From positions 186,001 through 250,000 of the forward strand of contig NZ_LSGQ01000001.1 in the NCBI RefSeq assembly GCF_001675285.1: DNA of 64,000 bases, read 5' to 3'. The notes beneath the pieces were generated by a model, which saw nothing but the letters and a program-made list of their open reading frames with translations, did not search any database and was not told the origin of the DNA. A program made the translations under genes and the position numbers. The DNA comes from Elizabethkingia miricola (GTDB lineage Bacteria > Bacteroidota > Bacteroidia > Flavobacteriales > Weeksellaceae). Shown one piece after another: positions 36,484-43,122 of the stretch (the stretch's first letter is position 1; each line of letters begins with the position of its first letter).

Positions 36484-37512
36484 TTATTTCACTAAATCGA
36501 GTCTGAAACTAAAGCTTGTTCCCTCCAAATAGACACTTTTTACATCAATATTTTTCTTATGGGCTTCCAGAATATGCTTTACAATCGCAAGTCCCAGCCC
36601 GGATCCGCCATCTTTACGGCTACGGCTGGATTCTACACGGTAAAAACGTTCAAAAATACGGGGAAGGCTTTCAGGTTTTATTCCCATTCCATTATCTTTT
36701 ACTTCAACAAGTACTTCATTACCTGTAATAATTGTATTGACAACAATTTGTGCTTTTTCCCGGTTGGCGTAATGAATAGCATTAGCCAAAAGGTTTATAA
36801 GTACCTGTGAAATCTTGTTACGGTCTGCATTTACCATTACTGCACTTTGTGATGTAGTCAGTAAAAATTTAGCCCCCGTTTTATGGGCTTCCAGATCCAG
36901 AAGATCGAAGATATCGCGGACAAGAATATTAATATCAAATTTGGATAAAGAGAGGCTTATCTGCCCGGATTCTAGACGGCTGATCATATCCAGGTCCTGA
37001 ACAATATTCAGAATTCTCTCAACCGATTTATCAATCCTTTCCAAATATTTATCGCGGATATTCATATCGTCCACTCCACCATCCATCAATGTTTCTACAT
37101 ATCCCTGGATGGAAAACAGTGGTGTTTTCAATTCGTGGGCTACGTTACCCAAATATTCTTTACGGTAGTTTTCCATTTCCTTCATGGTTACCATTCTGGC
37201 ATCTGCCTCTTCCCGCATTCCGGTAATTTTCTCTCCGAGCTCGGTAAAGGTGGTAGGATTTTCTTCCTGAATAAAATACTCCGGAAATGTCTGGGAAATT
37301 TTACGTATCTGTCGCTGATCGTAGTTTCTGAAAAGGAAAACCAGAACCACATAATTGATTCCGGTAATTATAAGTAATGCTATTATTACAAGTAATAGTG
37401 TGATATTTCTGCTGTCATAAAGGTGATGAAATTTCTCATACAGCATGGCTATTGCTGCCATACAGAGCGTGAGGAATATTGCAGAAATAATTTTAACGGG
37501 GCTTACATTCAT
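36484..37512 (-). CDS. PhoR-like sensor histidine kinase
   Basis: The 342-residue protein has two membrane helices (about 8-25 and 38-62) with almost no periplasmic loop, a short cytoplasmic linker, and a HisKA domain with phospho-acceptor His126 (GNVAHELKTPL). The HATPase domain has N-box NLLANAIHYAN, G1 VKDNGMGI, F-box FERFYRV and G2 GGSGLGLAIV. It should phosphorylate the response regulator encoded nine bases upstream. The tiny periplasmic part suggests that it senses a membrane or transport signal rather than a periplasmic ligand, as in PhoR. The Pho assignment is supported by the 11-bp repeats at 38282-38331. Confidence 0.9.
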   Translation of the reverse strand: MNVSPVKIISAIFLTLCMAAIAMLYEKFHHLYDSRNITLLLVIIALLIITGINYVVLVFLFRNYDQRQIRKISQTFPEYFIQEENPTTFTELGEKITGMREEADARMVTMKEMENYRKEYLGNVAHELKTPLFSIQGYVETLMDGGVDDMNIRDKYLERIDKSVERILNIVQDLDMISRLESGQISLSLSKFDINILVRDIFDLLDLEAHKTGAKFLLTTSQSAVMVNADRNKISQVLINLLANAIHYANREKAQIVVNTIITGNEVLVEVKDNGMGIKPESLPRIFERFYRVESSRSRKDGGSGLGLAIVKHILEAHKKNIDVKSVYLEGTSFSFRLDLVK

Positions 37513-37521
37513 AGTGAGAAA

Positions 37522-38199
37522 TTACACTACCAATTTATACCCGATACCTTTAAGAGTCTGAATGGTATCTATTCCCAACTTTTCTCTAAGTCTACGAATA
37601 TGTACATCGATGGTTCTTTCTCCAACAATAACATCATTACCCCAAACTTTTTCTAAAATCTCGTCTCTTTTGAAGACTTTCTGAGTGTTAGAAGCTAGTA
37701 AATAAAGTAAGTCGAACTCTTTCTTTGGTAATAAAAACTGTTGAGTCCCTTTTGTTACTCTGAAGTTATCCTTATCTATAGTAAGACTTCCGATTTTCAA
37801 TTGTTGTGCCTGTGTTGCTACACGGGTTGTAAGCTCCATCAGTGCATTAACTTTTGAAATAAGTACTTTTGGCTTTATTACCTTAGTAATATAATCATTA
37901 GCACCAGCCTGGAAACCTGCTAGTTGAGAAAATTCTTCACCACGTGCAGAAAGGAAAATAATTAAAGTTTTTTCAAGCTCTTTAATATTACGCAGATCCT
38001 GACACGTTTCTATTCCGTCTTTCTCAGGCATCATTACATCCAGAAGTATCATATCCGGAATAAGCTCTTTTGCTTTCTCAATTCCTTCTACTCCGTTTTT
38101 AGCGGTTTCAACCAAATATCCTTCTTTGGTAAGATTATAGGATAATAATTCTAAAATATCCGGTTCATCATCTATTAAAAGGATTTTTTTAGTGCTCAT
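37522..38199 (-). CDS. PhoB-like response regulator (OmpR/PhoB family)
   Basis: The start is taken at ATG 38199 (MSTKKILLIDDEP), giving 225 residues; the longer frame begins in the promoter region. The receiver domain (1-120) has Asp10, Asp11 and phospho-acceptor Asp54 (ILLDVMMPEKDG). The winged-helix effector domain (about 130-225) has FLLPKKEFDLLYLLA, EILEKVWGND and GERTIDVHIRRLREKLG. PhoB-type effectors bind direct repeats with an 11-bp period, and such repeats lie in the adjacent divergent promoter. It is co-transcribed with the kinase. Confidence 0.92.
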   Translation of the reverse strand: MSTKKILLIDDEPDILELLSYNLTKEGYLVETAKNGVEGIEKAKELIPDMILLDVMMPEKDGIETCQDLRNIKELEKTLIIFLSARGEEFSQLAGFQAGANDYITKVIKPKVLISKVNALMELTTRVATQAQQLKIGSLTIDKDNFRVTKGTQQFLLPKKEFDLLYLLASNTQKVFKRDEILEKVWGNDVIVGERTIDVHIRRLREKLGIDTIQTLKGIGYKLVV

Positions 38200-38217: not shown

Positions 38218-38225
38218 CAAAATTA
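38218..38225 (-). promoter_or_regulatory. -7 element of the two-component operon
   Basis: TAATTTTG on the minus strand matches TAnnTTTG. A TTG lies 16 nt upstream (38244-38242). Expected start is near 38211. Confidence 0.45.
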
Positions 38226-38281
38226 ACAAATTTTAATAAATCAATACCTCATTAACAATAATTTAATATTAACAACATTCT

Positions 38282-38331
38282 GTTAACACAAACTTAAAAA
38301 TTACTTAAATATAGCTTAAAAAAAACTTAAA
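38282..38331 (+). promoter_or_regulatory. Pho-box-like operator: 11-bp direct repeats
   Basis: CTTAAA occurs at 38293, 38304, 38315 and 38326, exactly 11 bp apart, and a diverged copy GTTAAC lies one period earlier at 38282. The period and the TTAA(A/C) core match PhoB/PhoP binding sites. The array ends 10 bp before a TTTCTTTG -7-like element (38342-38349), so the last repeats overlap the -33 region, the placement expected of an activator. Confidence 0.7.
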
Positions 38332-38363
38332 CAATTCTTGGTTTCTTTGCCCCAATAAAATAA

Positions 38364-40967
38364 ATGAAAAGTAAAATGAGAATAACTAAACTCTCAATTG
38401 GTGTTTTATTCACTTTTATTTCTACCACTTCTCTAATGGCTCAGGCAACGCAGGATACCATTAAAAAGAATGAGGCTAAAAATATTGAAGGAGTAAAATT
38501 ACAAGGTCAAAGGAATAAAAAAACCGAAACGGCCATTTTACAAGAGCAGAAAAAAGCTGTTATCCAAAAGCAAGCTATGGGAGCTGAAGAAATTTCCAGA
38601 AAAGGGATTTCTAATGTAGAACAAGGTTTGACAAAGGTAACAGGAATCAACTCTGTAGAAGGAAGAGGGCTATTTGTAAGAGGATTGGAAGAGAGATATA
38701 GTTATTTGTTGATCAATGGGCTGGGATCACCATCTAATAACCCTTTTCAGAAAATAATTGCATTAAAACAGTTTCCAACTGATGTTGTAGGTAAACTTAA
38801 TATTTACAAAACATTTAATGCAGATTTATATGGTGACTTTGCCGGAGCAACTTTCGATATTGAAACCCTTACCTACGAGAAGCCTTTTACAAAAATAGAA
38901 TTTAGTGTAGGGGTTAATTCTCAGAATACTTTCAGAAATAATTTTAAAATCAATCCTAATGCAGATACTTTCAGAGGTTATTTAGGATTAAACTCAGATA
39001 AAAGACAGCTTCCTGATCCTATAAACGGATACCAGCCAAGCGGATATGAACTCACAAAGGAAGAATCTCTGCATAATTTTAAAGAGTCATGGGATGTTAA
39101 CAATGTAAAATCATTACCAAATACAGGGATCGGATTTACAACAGCTCAGAAATTTAAAGCTGGAAATACAGGCAGCGTAGGTTTCTTATTATCCTTAAAC
39201 CAGGCTAACTCTTACGAATACAGAAACGGAAACAAAAATAACTTTAATGAATCCGGGGATTACAGAAACCGCTTAATGAGAGAAACTTATACTTATGGTA
39301 TAGAATCTTCTGCATTATTAGGCGTTGGCTATAAGAACAAAGGAACGAAAATAGATTTGAGTGCTATGTTCTTACAAAACTCGGATAATGTTATTGAAGA
39401 CTTCTATGGATACAGAGATCAACAGAAACAAACACCATTATTTTTCCGTGTTAACCAGCAGGATATTTCCAGATTTACAAATATTCAGTTAATCGCATCC
39501 CAGAAAATAGGAGACCGGCATTTTATAAAAGCAGGAGGAAGCTGGGTGAATAATTTCTTCCAACAACCAGATCGGAAGATATTTGCTGGGCAAGAAATTC
39601 CCGGGACTCAGGATCTTTCTATGAACTATGGAGGTAATAACCTTATCCGTCAATACTTTGATGTAAATGGTAAGAATTACTTTTCAGCTTTTGCAGAATA
39701 TAATGTTGGATTGGGTGAAAGAAATGAGAAAAATGAATTCCCTGTTAATATAGCTGCAGGGTATAATGGTTTTGCTGACATCAGGAATATATCTTACCGC
39801 TTTATATATGGTAGATTGCTAGATCCTGCAAATGCAAATGTAATTGTTAATAAAGATAAGCCTCAGGCACAATTCAACAACGGATTAACCAAAGGCTATT
39901 ATAGTTATTTCGAAGGCTCTCCGCAACATTACAAAAAACATCTTTACCAGTTTGTCAATGCTGGATATATTAACCTGAATTATAAACCAAATGAAACCTG
40001 GGATATATTAATTGGTGGCCGTGTAGAAAACAACATGAACATTACACGTTACAAAGATCCTAAAAGCAATAAGTATCCGGACACTGAAAACATTACTAAG
40101 AATCAGTACTTTATACTACCCTCTTTGGCAATTAAAAAGGCTCTTAATAATAGCTCTAACATCAGATTTGCTGCTAGTAAATCTATCACAAGACCTATTC
40201 TTATAGAATATATGCCGATTGAATATATGAATCCGGATAACGAAAATATCGTAGGTAACCCATTATTGAAAAATAGTGAAAACTATAACATCGATTTAAA
40301 ATATGAATGGTTCCCAACCAGTAAGGAGATGATTGCTTTTAATGCTTTTGGTAAAATACTGGATTATGCTATTGAAAGATCATATATTTCTTCCGGGAAT
40401 TCTACAGGAACAACTATTACTTATTTCAATTCTAAAAGAGCCAAAGTACTCGGTCTTGAAGTAGAAGGTTTAGTTGGTCTTAACAGAATTTTCGAAGGAT
40501 TAGACAGGTGGTCATTAGGAGCTAATGCAACCTTTATGTATACAGATGTAGAAAGAAGTGAGGAACAGAAAAATGAAACCGACTTCCTTGCAAACAGAAA
40601 CAGAAAATTACAGGGTGCTGCCCCATGGACTGTGAATGCAGATTTAAAATACGAATTCAAAAACTCACAGAATCTTACTAACACATTCTCTCTTGTTTAC
40701 AATGTTTCAGGTAAAAAAATCTACGGAGTTGGATTTGGTAGACTGGACAATGTATACGAAAGTCCTTTCCACCAACTAGACTTTATTTACAATACACAGT
40801 TGACTAAGAACTGGAATCTGAAATTTGCAATACAGAATATTCTTAATCAGCAGTACAAACTGGATTTAGGCGATAGAAGTTTAATTCCGATCAATGAAAC
40901 CTCTTTGAGAATGGTAGACTTCAAACGTGGTACAAACTTTAACCTGACAATAGGTTATACATTTTAA
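38364..40967 (+). CDS. TonB-dependent outer-membrane receptor, predicted Pho-regulated
   Basis: The 867-residue protein has a signal peptide ending LMAQ; the start may be the first ATG or the one at 38376. A plug domain follows (about 55-165; GISNVEQGLTKVTGINSVEGRGLFVRG split by the usual turns, then LINGLGSPSN). The 22-strand barrel occupies the rest and ends with a C-terminal aromatic (IGYTF). There is no SusC-type N-terminal carboxypeptidase domain. TonB receptors import scarce solutes across the outer membrane. The Pho-box-like promoter and divergent PhoBR-like genes suggest phosphate or a phosphorus compound. The lipoprotein gene follows 26 bp behind. Confidence 0.92.
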   Translation: MKSKMRITKLSIGVLFTFISTTSLMAQATQDTIKKNEAKNIEGVKLQGQRNKKTETAILQEQKKAVIQKQAMGAEEISRKGISNVEQGLTKVTGINSVEGRGLFVRGLEERYSYLLINGLGSPSNNPFQKIIALKQFPTDVVGKLNIYKTFNADLYGDFAGATFDIETLTYEKPFTKIEFSVGVNSQNTFRNNFKINPNADTFRGYLGLNSDKRQLPDPINGYQPSGYELTKEESLHNFKESWDVNNVKSLPNTGIGFTTAQKFKAGNTGSVGFLLSLNQANSYEYRNGNKNNFNESGDYRNRLMRETYTYGIESSALLGVGYKNKGTKIDLSAMFLQNSDNVIEDFYGYRDQQKQTPLFFRVNQQDISRFTNIQLIASQKIGDRHFIKAGGSWVNNFFQQPDRKIFAGQEIPGTQDLSMNYGGNNLIRQYFDVNGKNYFSAFAEYNVGLGERNEKNEFPVNIAAGYNGFADIRNISYRFIYGRLLDPANANVIVNKDKPQAQFNNGLTKGYYSYFEGSPQHYKKHLYQFVNAGYINLNYKPNETWDILIGGRVENNMNITRYKDPKSNKYPDTENITKNQYFILPSLAIKKALNNSSNIRFAASKSITRPILIEYMPIEYMNPDNENIVGNPLLKNSENYNIDLKYEWFPTSKEMIAFNAFGKILDYAIERSYISSGNSTGTTITYFNSKRAKVLGLEVEGLVGLNRIFEGLDRWSLGANATFMYTDVERSEEQKNETDFLANRNRKLQGAAPWTVNADLKYEFKNSQNLTNTFSLVYNVSGKKIYGVGFGRLDNVYESPFHQLDFIYNTQLTKNWNLKFAIQNILNQQYKLDLGDRSLIPINETSLRMVDFKRGTNFNLTIGYTF

Positions 40968-40993: not shown

Positions 40994-42214
40994 ATGAAAA
41001 AGAACATCCTAACGCTTTTGTCTTTAACATTTCTATTAAGCGTTTCTTCATGTACGATTGATATTCGTGAAGACAATGACATCCCTACAAACCCAACCAA
41101 TCCTGGAAATAACAATGGTTCTGTAATGGAAGGCTCAGGAAATCTAACTGGTACAATTACTAAAGATTTATTGATAAAAAAAGGTAACTACACATTAACA
41201 GGTATTGTAAAGGTATCCGATGGCGTTACTCTAACAATAGAGGCTGGTGCTAATTTTACGGCTACAACTAATATTGATAGTAGTTTAGTTATCCTGAAAG
41301 GTGGAAAAATAAAAGCTGAGGGTACAGCAGATCAGCCAATTGTTTTCACAACAGCTTCCAAAAAACCAGGTGACTGGGGTGGTATTACAATCTATGGTAA
41401 TGCGCCGATAAAGGCGGTTGGCGGTGCTTCAACAGCACTTTCAGAAGATGGATTATCTCAGACGTACGGAGGTAATGATGCAAATTCTAATTCTGGTGTA
41501 ATGAAATTCGTAAGAGTTGAATACGGAGGCCGTAAAATTGGAGATGGAACATCTGAAACAAACTCTATGACTTTCTATGCTGTAGGTGCAGGAACTATTT
41601 TGGAAAACCTAGTATCTTATAAAGGTACAGATGATGGTTTTGAATTCTTCGGCGGTACTGCAAGCGGAAGTAATCTAATCTCTTACGGAAACTATGACGA
41701 TTCTTTCGACTGGCAAGATGGTTGGTCTGGCCAAAATAATTCTAACTGGTATGCATACCAAACAGGTATTGGTAACTTTGGTATGGAGATCGAAGCTTCT
41801 TCTAACGCTGATAACACTGCTCCAAAAGTAAACGGAATTACTTTAATCAGAGAAGCAGGTACTCAGCCTGAGGTTGCCGGATCCGCAGAAATTACTGCAA
41901 TTCAGTTTAAAAAGCATGGATCAGGAATCTTTACCAATGTTTACATAGATGGGTATAAAAATATGGGTACTCAGCAAGCTTATGCAGTTTTAATTCAGGA
42001 TTTAGCTACTGAAACCGATCAGTTAAATAAAGGAAAAATTAAAGTTACTCCGATAAATTACCTAAATTCTGATAATCCGGGTGTATATGGATATGCATTT
42101 GCTACAACCAAACCTGTATCATTTACCAACGGAGATGTTAAGAAAACTCAGTTTACATCCGGTGCATGGGCAACTGTTGATGGTGTAGACTTGTTAGCAC
42201 CTGTGAAAAAATAA
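40994..42214 (+). CDS. Surface lipoprotein with right-handed beta-helix, partner of the TonB receptor
   Basis: The 406-residue protein has a lipoprotein signal with VSSC (Cys20). After an Asn/Pro-rich linker, residues about 45-400 form short regular strands with Gly-rich turns (GVTLTIEAGANFTA, ILKGGKIKAEGTADQPIVFT, DDGFEFFGGTASGSNLISYGNYDDSFDW), typical of a right-handed beta-helix. It has no catalytic signature that I can name. Its position directly after the TonB receptor and before a terminator suggests a surface substrate-binding or processing partner in the same uptake system, under the same predicted Pho control. Confidence 0.8.
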   Translation: MKKNILTLLSLTFLLSVSSCTIDIREDNDIPTNPTNPGNNNGSVMEGSGNLTGTITKDLLIKKGNYTLTGIVKVSDGVTLTIEAGANFTATTNIDSSLVILKGGKIKAEGTADQPIVFTTASKKPGDWGGITIYGNAPIKAVGGASTALSEDGLSQTYGGNDANSNSGVMKFVRVEYGGRKIGDGTSETNSMTFYAVGAGTILENLVSYKGTDDGFEFFGGTASGSNLISYGNYDDSFDWQDGWSGQNNSNWYAYQTGIGNFGMEIEASSNADNTAPKVNGITLIREAGTQPEVAGSAEITAIQFKKHGSGIFTNVYIDGYKNMGTQQAYAVLIQDLATETDQLNKGKIKVTPINYLNSDNPGVYGYAFATTKPVSFTNGDVKKTQFTSGAWATVDGVDLLAPVKK

Positions 42215-42329: not shown

Positions 42330-42617
42330 TTAATCTTCATCTTCAAATTGTTCCAGAAAATAGGAGAATGTAAAGCCTTCAACATTTTCTTCAGCATCTT
42401 CCATTGTTTCTAACAAATCTTCAAAAGTCTCCAGCTGGTCTACACTAAGATTAACGAACTCTATATGCAAAGGCATTTCTACATCACCTGTTAACACATC
42501 ATACAAACCATCCAGATTGTCCCCGAAATAATCAGGTAACGGGAGCTTCTCCTTTAGTTGTTCGTAAAATTCTTCATAGTCACCTATCTGACTAAAATCT
42601 ATGAATACTTCTTTCAT
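42330..42617 (-). CDS. Barstar family ribonuclease inhibitor
   Basis: The 95-residue acidic protein has the barstar pattern: FIDFSQIGDYEEFYEQLKEKL, PDYFGDNLDGLYDVLTG (the DNLDALWD-like loop that plugs the barnase active site) and helices rich in Glu/Asp. It should bind and neutralise the ribonuclease encoded 13 bp upstream, protecting the cell before export. The length matches barstar (about 90 residues). Confidence 0.93.
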   Translation of the reverse strand: MKEVFIDFSQIGDYEEFYEQLKEKLPLPDYFGDNLDGLYDVLTGDVEMPLHIEFVNLSVDQLETFEDLLETMEDAEENVEGFTFSYFLEQFEDED

Positions 42618-42630
42618 TTGTTTCTATTCG

Positions 42631-43122
42631 TTATTTCTGTTCAAAACTTTTATAATGATCTTTACTTATAAACACCAATCCGTCATTACTAAATACCATA
42701 CGTTCAGCATCTCTTCTTCCGCAATCGTAGTTTACATCGGCTTCAAAGTATTTTCTGCCATTTTCCTTAGGCAGCTTTCCTTCTCTGTTCCCAAAGTAAT
42801 CTCCACCTATTGCCTTGCCTGGTAAAATATCACAAAGATTTCCTTTAGATGGCTCCCAACCTTTTTCTCTGGCTTCTCTTTTAGTAATATAATAATCAGG
42901 CAGTCTTTTATTTTTCTTCACATAATCTGCTACAACTTTCTCATTTGTTAGCGTAGCTATATCTGTCTGCGTATTTTTAGTAGTTGTAGGATCATAGTTT
43001 ACTACCTCATCGGCAGTAGGCATTCTCTTTCCTGTATTTTTATTAATCAGAGACATCACTCCTATTCCTGCTGTAAAAGCAACAACGAAAAGAAGCATAA
43101 TCTTTAAAAACTTGGAGTTCAT
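42631..43122 (-). CDS. Barnase-like ribonuclease, exported or membrane-anchored
   Basis: The 163-residue protein has an N-terminal hydrophobic segment (about 6-25), a 35-residue linker and a barnase domain from about 60. The domain aligns closely with Bacillus barnase (VADYVKKNKRLPDYYITK, SKGNLCDILPGKAIGGD, FGNREGKLP). The catalytic residues are all present: Lys81 (K27), Glu127 (E73), Arg137 (R83), Arg141 (R87) and His156 (H102), barnase numbering in brackets. It is a guanine-preferring extracellular RNase. No clear signal-peptidase site follows the hydrophobic segment, so it may stay membrane-tethered. The pair forms an operon with barstar downstream. Confidence 0.95.
   Translation of the reverse strand: MNSKFLKIMLLFVVAFTAGIGVMSLINKNTGKRMPTADEVVNYDPTTTKNTQTDIATLTNEKVVADYVKKNKRLPDYYITKREAREKGWEPSKGNLCDILPGKAIGGDYFGNREGKLPKENGRKYFEADVNYDCGRRDAERMVFSNDGLVFISKDHYKSFEQK

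Follow-up and report, generated by a model that had tools for sequence, protein, structure and literature searches.

An 11-bp repeat array in fixed register with a TonB-dependent receptor promoter of Elizabethkingia miricola: a predicted PhoB-family operator

Introduction

Between a PhoB-like response regulator gene and a divergent TonB-dependent receptor gene of Elizabethkingia miricola, one hexamer recurs with strict periodicity. This raises the question of which regulator the repeats would serve, and whether such a site is recognisable by its letters or by its distance from the promoter. The original prediction, made from the DNA letters, read the repeats as a Pho box and the genes behind them as a member of a phosphate-starvation regulon. 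We followed it up in the window (the whole stretch of DNA analysed, 64,000 nucleotides), in the genome to which the window belongs and in related genomes.

In Escherichia coli, the Pho box is made of 11-bp direct repeats with the core TGTCA; it covers the -35 region, ahead of the -10 element, and is bound head to tail by PhoB.

The accounts of Bacteroidota given here are drawn from the accessible portions of the papers cited. Plant-microbiome Bacteroidetes are described as prominent contributors to phosphorus mobilisation; PstSABC is reported absent from plant-associated members, where outer-membrane receptors stand in for the Pst transporter (PMC8115612). The PhoB of Bacteroides fragilis acts on pst: a BF1576 (PhoRB) mutant showed only trace pstC expression in low phosphate, and the accessible text mentions a Pho box but not its sequence (PMC3547664). 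The PhoP of Riemerella anatipestifer, which is reported to be raised in phosphate starvation, has a binding site upstream of the operon that encodes it, and its DAP-seq motif (583 peaks) is ArcA-like, with TTTAACA as its most conserved letters (PMC9603813). Its authors tie this motif to ArcA and virulence, and no unit spacing relative to the promoter is given in the accessible text (PMC9603813); we compare this PhoP with the window regulator on these points. Among open-licence papers we found neither a Bacteroidota Pho-box sequence nor a description of a register rule or of promoter choice by a Bacteroidetes phosphate regulator. The array described below is real and conserved and belongs to a type of locus whose response to phosphate had been described before; what is new is the register rule.

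Results and Discussion

A five-unit array facing the receptor promoter

The features of the locus are as follows (window coordinates).

36484 to 37512, minus strand: PhoR-like histidine kinase gene; best NCBIfam matches PnpS and PhoR, below cut-off
37522 to 38199, minus strand: response regulator gene, receiver and winged-helix domains; best NCBIfam matches PhoB models, below cut-offs
38251 to 38267, no strand assigned: two-unit box ATTAAC-N5-TTTAAT, nearer phoB, its start 31 bp ahead of that of the array
38282 to 38331, plus strand: five-unit 11-bp direct-repeat array (GTTAAC and four CTTAAA), a predicted PhoB-family operator for the receptor operon
38342 to 38349, plus strand: predicted -7 element TTTCTTTG, whose TTTG starts at 38346
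38364 to 40967, plus strand: TonB-dependent receptor gene, syntenic with Fjoh_0545; product of 867 aa with a Pfam Plug domain and a TIGR01782 match below cut-off
40994 to 42214, plus strand: lipoprotein gene, cysteine at position 20; counterpart of the published FII lipoprotein

All five repeats were found where they had been reported: GTTAAC at 38282 and CTTAAA at 38293, 38304, 38315 and 38326, with a period of exactly 11 bp. They lie in an intergenic region of 164 bp with 19.5% GC, between the response-regulator gene on the minus strand and the receptor gene on the plus strand. When this region was shuffled with its dinucleotides preserved (n=20,000), two plus-strand CTTAAA at 11 bp were seen in 22 shuffles and three or four in none. 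Likewise, no hexamer of any kind occurred four times at a constant spacing of 8 to 25 in 5,000 shuffles. Runs of four TTAA spaced by 11 bp are present at only two places of the 4.29-Mb genome, the window array and C8:49526; the reversed-pattern control gave 0.

The -7 element fits TAnnTTTG, which we take to be the consensus of the Bacteroidota-type -7 box, and CTTTG is invariant across the 22-promoter alignment. Counted from the TTTG of TTTCTTTG, the array units begin 64, 53, 42, 31 and 20 bp upstream. The array had been expected to end over the -33 region; the fourth repeat (38315, at -31) does cover it, but the array ends with the fifth (38326), between -33 and -7. Like the E. coli Pho box, the array consists of 11-bp direct repeats over the -35/-33 region. 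It differs in its core (TTAA, TTMA or GTAAC), in having four to five units in its own family and in its TAnnTTTG-type -7 anchor; the E. coli consensus core TGTCA does not occur in the window array, whose core is TTAA/TTMA. As for a Pho box, the 11-bp direct repeats stand upstream of the promoter, the phosphate regulation of which is argued by homology only.

Register and letters across the family and the order

Loss of the repeats in related genomes had been named beforehand as one outcome that would refute the original prediction. A receptor ortholog (E <= 1e-80) was found in 38 of 148 family genomes, and 31 intergenic regions were aligned, from 30 of these 38 genomes and from G005. The phoB gene is divergent from the receptor gene in every one of them. 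The ungapped alignment displays the two-unit box and then four 11-bp units that start 31 bp after the start of the box. Array units one to three fit N[TG]T[AC]A in 31/31 regions, and the distance from the start of the fourth unit to the start of TTTG is 31 bp in 17 regions and 32 bp in the other 14. Information content is highest on the TTMA core, with mean bits of 1.16-1.66 at phases 1-4 and of 0.36-0.78 elsewhere. The fourth unit reads CTTAAA in the four own-genus genomes and ends in AAC in 26 of the 27 other regions (CTAAAC, CGAAAC, CGCAAC and others), and an unbroken series of perfect CTTAAA is peculiar to these four genomes. A fifth TTMA unit is likewise found in 4/4 own-genus genomes, and in 2/27 other family regions.

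At the level of the order, at least 86 of 118 genomes carry one PhoB homolog each (E <= 1e-60, with no more than 25 candidates scored in a genome). We inspected 20 such regions, and 17 of them, the exceptions being L132, L134 and L139, have a receptor-sized gene and a lipoprotein-like gene beside phoB, as judged by length, homology and signal sequence; the receptors of L128, L137 and L138 were confirmed by Pfam. A further set of 43 receptor-homolog loci, mostly from Flavobacterium, was collected, in 33 of which phoB was recognised by a simple motif, and 41 of which had a usable anchor (L180 and L194 did not). The loose core NNT[AC]A occupies both the -42 and the -31 position relative to TTTG in 41/41 of these Flavobacteriaceae loci, and the -20 position in 10/41; the -20 unit is often CTTTAC, a form outside the loose core. 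The register is firm at -42 and -31, not at -20. The unit letters of these loci (CATAAC, CGTAAC) differ from those of the window, but the register is the same. The repeats are thus conserved in relatives, in 31/31 family regions and 41/41 Flavobacteriaceae loci. An origin of the array as a chance product of AT-rich DNA is ruled out by the shuffles together with this conservation.

The genes on either side

The original prediction described the divergent neighbours as a PhoR/PhoB-like pair whose kinase lacks a periplasmic domain, and this architecture fits what we found. Pfam recognises a receiver and winged-helix regulator with an adjoining HisKA/HATPase kinase. The N-terminus of the kinase contains two hydrophobic stretches joined by a linker of about a dozen residues, so that a periplasmic domain is unlikely. 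None of the equivalog cut-offs is reached: the regulator scored 199.4 of 296.2 bits with TIGR02154 and 183.8 of 270 with NF053854, its two best PhoB models, and the kinase 246.5 of 400 with PnpS and 226.2 of 334.2 with TIGR02966. Two Flavobacterium-group PhoBs at the syntenic locus likewise miss the NCBIfam cut-offs, and in 0 of the 5 genomes searched was a regulator above that of NF053854.

On the other side, the lipobox cysteine Cys20 of the lipoprotein is invariant in 22 aligned sequences. The lipoprotein gene starts 26 bp past the stop codon of the receptor gene and lacks a separate lattice promoter (lattice meaning 11-bp units in register with TTTG), for which reasons it is probably co-transcribed with the receptor gene; in the Flavobacteriaceae group, the FII lipoprotein gene has its own lattice in 8/9 cases. 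A beta-helix fold had been proposed for this lipoprotein. When signs of such a pectin-lyase-like fold were sought, no Pfam family was found for the protein, its profile gave no match among PDB sequences at E<=0.01, and the single sequence gave only weak PDB matches, to alginate-binding proteins (E 0.44 and 0.54); InterPro IPR011050 is listed for the homologue in the accessible part of PMC8115612.

With phoB divergent from a TonB-dependent receptor gene and a lipoprotein gene, the window has the same gene set as the PUSIV/phoBR locus described for Flavobacterium johnsoniae (phoR Fjoh_0543, phoB 0544, receptor 0545, lipoprotein 0546; PMC8115612). The receptor subfamily differs: the window protein shares 28% identity with a Flavobacterium-group relative, and the CarboxypepD_reg-like domain of the Flavobacterium-group receptors is not found in it. 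Taking the FC column of the published table as log2, phosphate depletion of F. johnsoniae raised the receptor Fjoh_0545 by 8.0, the lipoprotein 0546 by 9.9 and phoB 0544 by 3.06, as well as the phytase-cluster receptor 1368 (9.2), the sigma factor 3859 (7.9) and the S41 peptidase 3853 (9.1), while Fjoh_0542, the porin counterpart, was not induced (-1.3; PMC8115612). Neither Pho box nor motif appears as a term in the accessible text of that paper (PMC8115612).

The lattice at other phosphate genes

In the own genome, a 70-nt promoter model gave a strong hit at its training locus alone (E 3e-9, the next hit being at 0.05). As this model failed to generalise, scoring was done at the level of units, with 6-letter matrices trained on receptor promoters (19 non-redundant ones of the own family and 16 of Flavobacteriaceae). 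The lattice score of a gene was that of its best-matching run of three adjoining units in register with an upstream TTTG, and the threshold of 12 was chosen after viewing the score distributions. Scanned over both strands of the whole window, the own-family matrix gave a single site at or above 11, the array; the Flavobacteriaceae matrix gave the array at 12.4 and one more site (anchor 26561) at 12.7.

Eight stretches of the own genome (99 genes) contained five promoters above 13, all others scoring 3.2 or less. The five belong to the window array, the phytase-operon receptor, a PUSIII-like S41 peptidase, a PUSIII-like ECF sigma factor and an RND efflux operon; the stretch with the RND operon (L012) had been picked by its repeat pattern, L045 and L053 by protein homology. 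The phytase operon consists of a receptor gene, a lipoprotein-like gene and a Pfam phytase gene, in this order, and the recurrence of the repeat before phytase genes, which the original prediction had proposed as a check, was indeed observed there, ahead of the receptor gene. The PUSIII-like cluster of L045 (G000:C3:226000-236000) includes a divergent ECF sigma factor gene, FecR, a receptor, a lipoprotein, a small protein and an S41 peptidase, and its lattice promoters lie before the sigma factor and before the peptidase. The genes of this cluster and the porin, MauG, RND and ribonuclease genes were first identified by eye and afterwards checked with Pfam.

Over three genome groups (357 genes; those with less than 150 bp upstream were dropped, L265 was left out and reading frames were called mechanically), 50/141 phosphate-class genes reached 12, compared with 2/216 others, namely the RND operon and, beside phoR, the gene L127:9385, which has no Pfam family. 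Classes were assigned by the best blastp match above 60 bits, so that one paralogous pair (L012) is counted within the PhoB and PhoR classes, and many phosphate-class genes lie inside operons, where a promoter of their own is not expected. Twelve of the 50 scoring genes are receptors beside phoB in the training groups; once all 14 receptor-beside-phoB genes were removed (these 12 plus L137 and L138), 36/127 phosphate-class genes still scored 12 or more. Since promoters are nearly identical among species of one genus, these counts are not independent. Control periods of 8, 9, 10, 12, 13 and 14 gave no gene at 12 or above. When the offset was changed to 12, 14, 16, 18, 22, 24, 26 or 28, the phosphate-class genes numbered 4, 0, 1, 7, 0, 0, 0 and 1, and offset 18 added 1 gene outside the phosphate classes.

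Outside the training set, the phytase-type receptor has a lattice in 3/3 cases in the own genome and family group and in 1/9 in the Flavobacteriaceae group. The PUSIII-like sigma factor (3/3) and S41 peptidase (4/4) have one as well, in the own genus only and with near-identical promoters. The FI-class lipoprotein scored in 9/18 cases in the Flavobacteriaceae group and in 0/8 in the own genome and family group, most of these genes being inside operons, and MauG and PhoX in 1/3 and 1/4. No PhoX (PF05787, E<=0.001) was found in the own genome or in three others of its genus; in a family relative (L243, G021:C1:1557000-1567000), lattice promoters stand at a MauG-like gene (16.7) and at a PhoX gene (14.1). 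In the Flavobacteriaceae group, 6/7 Porin_O_P genes adjoining phoR carry the lattice. Loci where a Porin_O_P gene with a strong lattice promoter is found beside phoR are L122, L123, L124, L125, L126 and L128.

A predicted operator for the receptor operon

Taken together, we consider it probable, from the arrangement of the sequence, that the array is the operator of the adjoining PhoB-type regulator and controls the receptor and the lipoprotein on phosphate scarcity. Membership in a phosphate-starvation regulon, as originally predicted, is supported by the conservation of the array, by its recurrence at the phytase operon and by the reported induction of the homologous F. johnsoniae locus (PMC8115612). 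When phosphate is scarce, the PhoR-like kinase would phosphorylate the PhoB-like regulator, dimers of which, to judge from the lattice, would bind the 11-bp units head to tail and cover the -33 region. The fourth unit would replace the -33 element, and the complex would bring RNA polymerase to the -7 box in a register that is fixed. The receptor and the lipoprotein would thus be switched on and probably capture organic phosphate at the cell surface, the nature of the substrate being presumed. Several observations count against this reading: 6/7 porin genes have the lattice although Fjoh_0542 is not induced, and 8/9 Flavobacteriaceae phytase-type receptors are without it although Fjoh_1368 is. 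The same holds for the -20 core, seen in only 10/41 Flavobacteriaceae loci, for the phoB promoters, which fail to score, for the 70-nt model, strong at this locus alone, for the regulator and kinase scores below the NCBIfam cut-offs and for the lattice before the RND operon.

With less assurance, we lean towards a wider rule, in which the PhoB of Flavobacteriales uses an 11-bp lattice in fixed register with TAnnTTTG (-20, -31, -42, -53, -64) while the letters drift, on a grid that other OmpR-family regulators may share. A register that is fixed while letters drift would make many phosphate promoters across the order readable from sequence; if true, this operator rule would render phosphate regulons predictable throughout the order, and could be tested by a few promoter shifts.

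Lattices outside phosphate genes

TTAA lattices are not exclusive to PhoB, as seen from two loci. The first is the RND efflux operon beside its own two-component pair (score 13.2; L012:7527-7563, G000:C8:49526-49562), which suggests a grid common to OmpR-family regulators. At the second, GTTAAT triplets at 11 bp (L088 and L089, G000:C14 at about 100907 and 101808) lie on both sides of a Porph_ging (GLPGLI-type) gene and ahead of a histidine kinase gene, and are probably the site of another regulator. Three STTMA units occur at nine places in the own genome, with 0 for the reversed-pattern control: four inside reading frames, and five at the window array, the phytase-operon receptor, the RND operon and, twice, the Porph_ging/kinase locus. 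CTTAAA-N5-CTTAAA pairs were found at five other places of the genome, one being the RND operon and four (L013-L016) having no lattice-scoring gene nearby.

These lattices would be explained if the grid were a general architecture of the OmpR/PhoB family, with another regulator or a non-phosphate signal controlling the receptor. The own genome offers candidates: the Bacteroidetes PhoB profile recognises ten loci (E<=1e-25), among which the window regulator comes first by a narrow lead only (183.3 bits, the next scoring 180.4). We nevertheless regard this explanation as unlikely, because the regulator gene is divergent in 31/31 regions, the lattice is concentrated on homologues of the phosphate regulon and, in F. 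johnsoniae, depletion of phosphate turns on the homologous locus.

The two-unit box near phoB

The box that starts 31 bp before the array, which the original prediction does not mention, has both units in register in 26/31 family regions, and is a predicted autoregulatory site of phoB. At L132, L134 and L139, which have no divergent receptor, an 11-bp pair is visible by eye next to phoB, an arrangement that suggests autoregulation of this gene. Having two units only, phoB promoters scored 0/13 on the lattice, in a class that includes one paralogue. In the proposed scheme, this separate box would serve phoB.

The array itself, lying between both genes, might instead act mainly on the divergent phoB and not on the receptor, and Fjoh_0544 is indeed induced (3.06; PMC8115612). 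This is very improbable in view of the register of the array, which is fixed to the -7 box of the receptor, and of the three loci lacking a divergent receptor, which have the pair without an array. Most improbable of all are phased A-tracts that bend the DNA or act as a UP-like element without a specific regulator: the region is 80% A+T and the repeats are in 11-bp phase, but relatives hold the register with CATAAC, CGTAAC and CTTCAC units, which are not A-tracts, and conservation peaks on the TTMA core. The operator of the adjoining PhoB-type regulator thus remains the preferred reading of the array.

Directly after the lipoprotein gene, at 42330-43122 of the window, a Barstar gene (PF01337) adjoins a Ribonuclease-domain gene (PF00545), and a similar protein was noticed by eye at L015:5536-6012.
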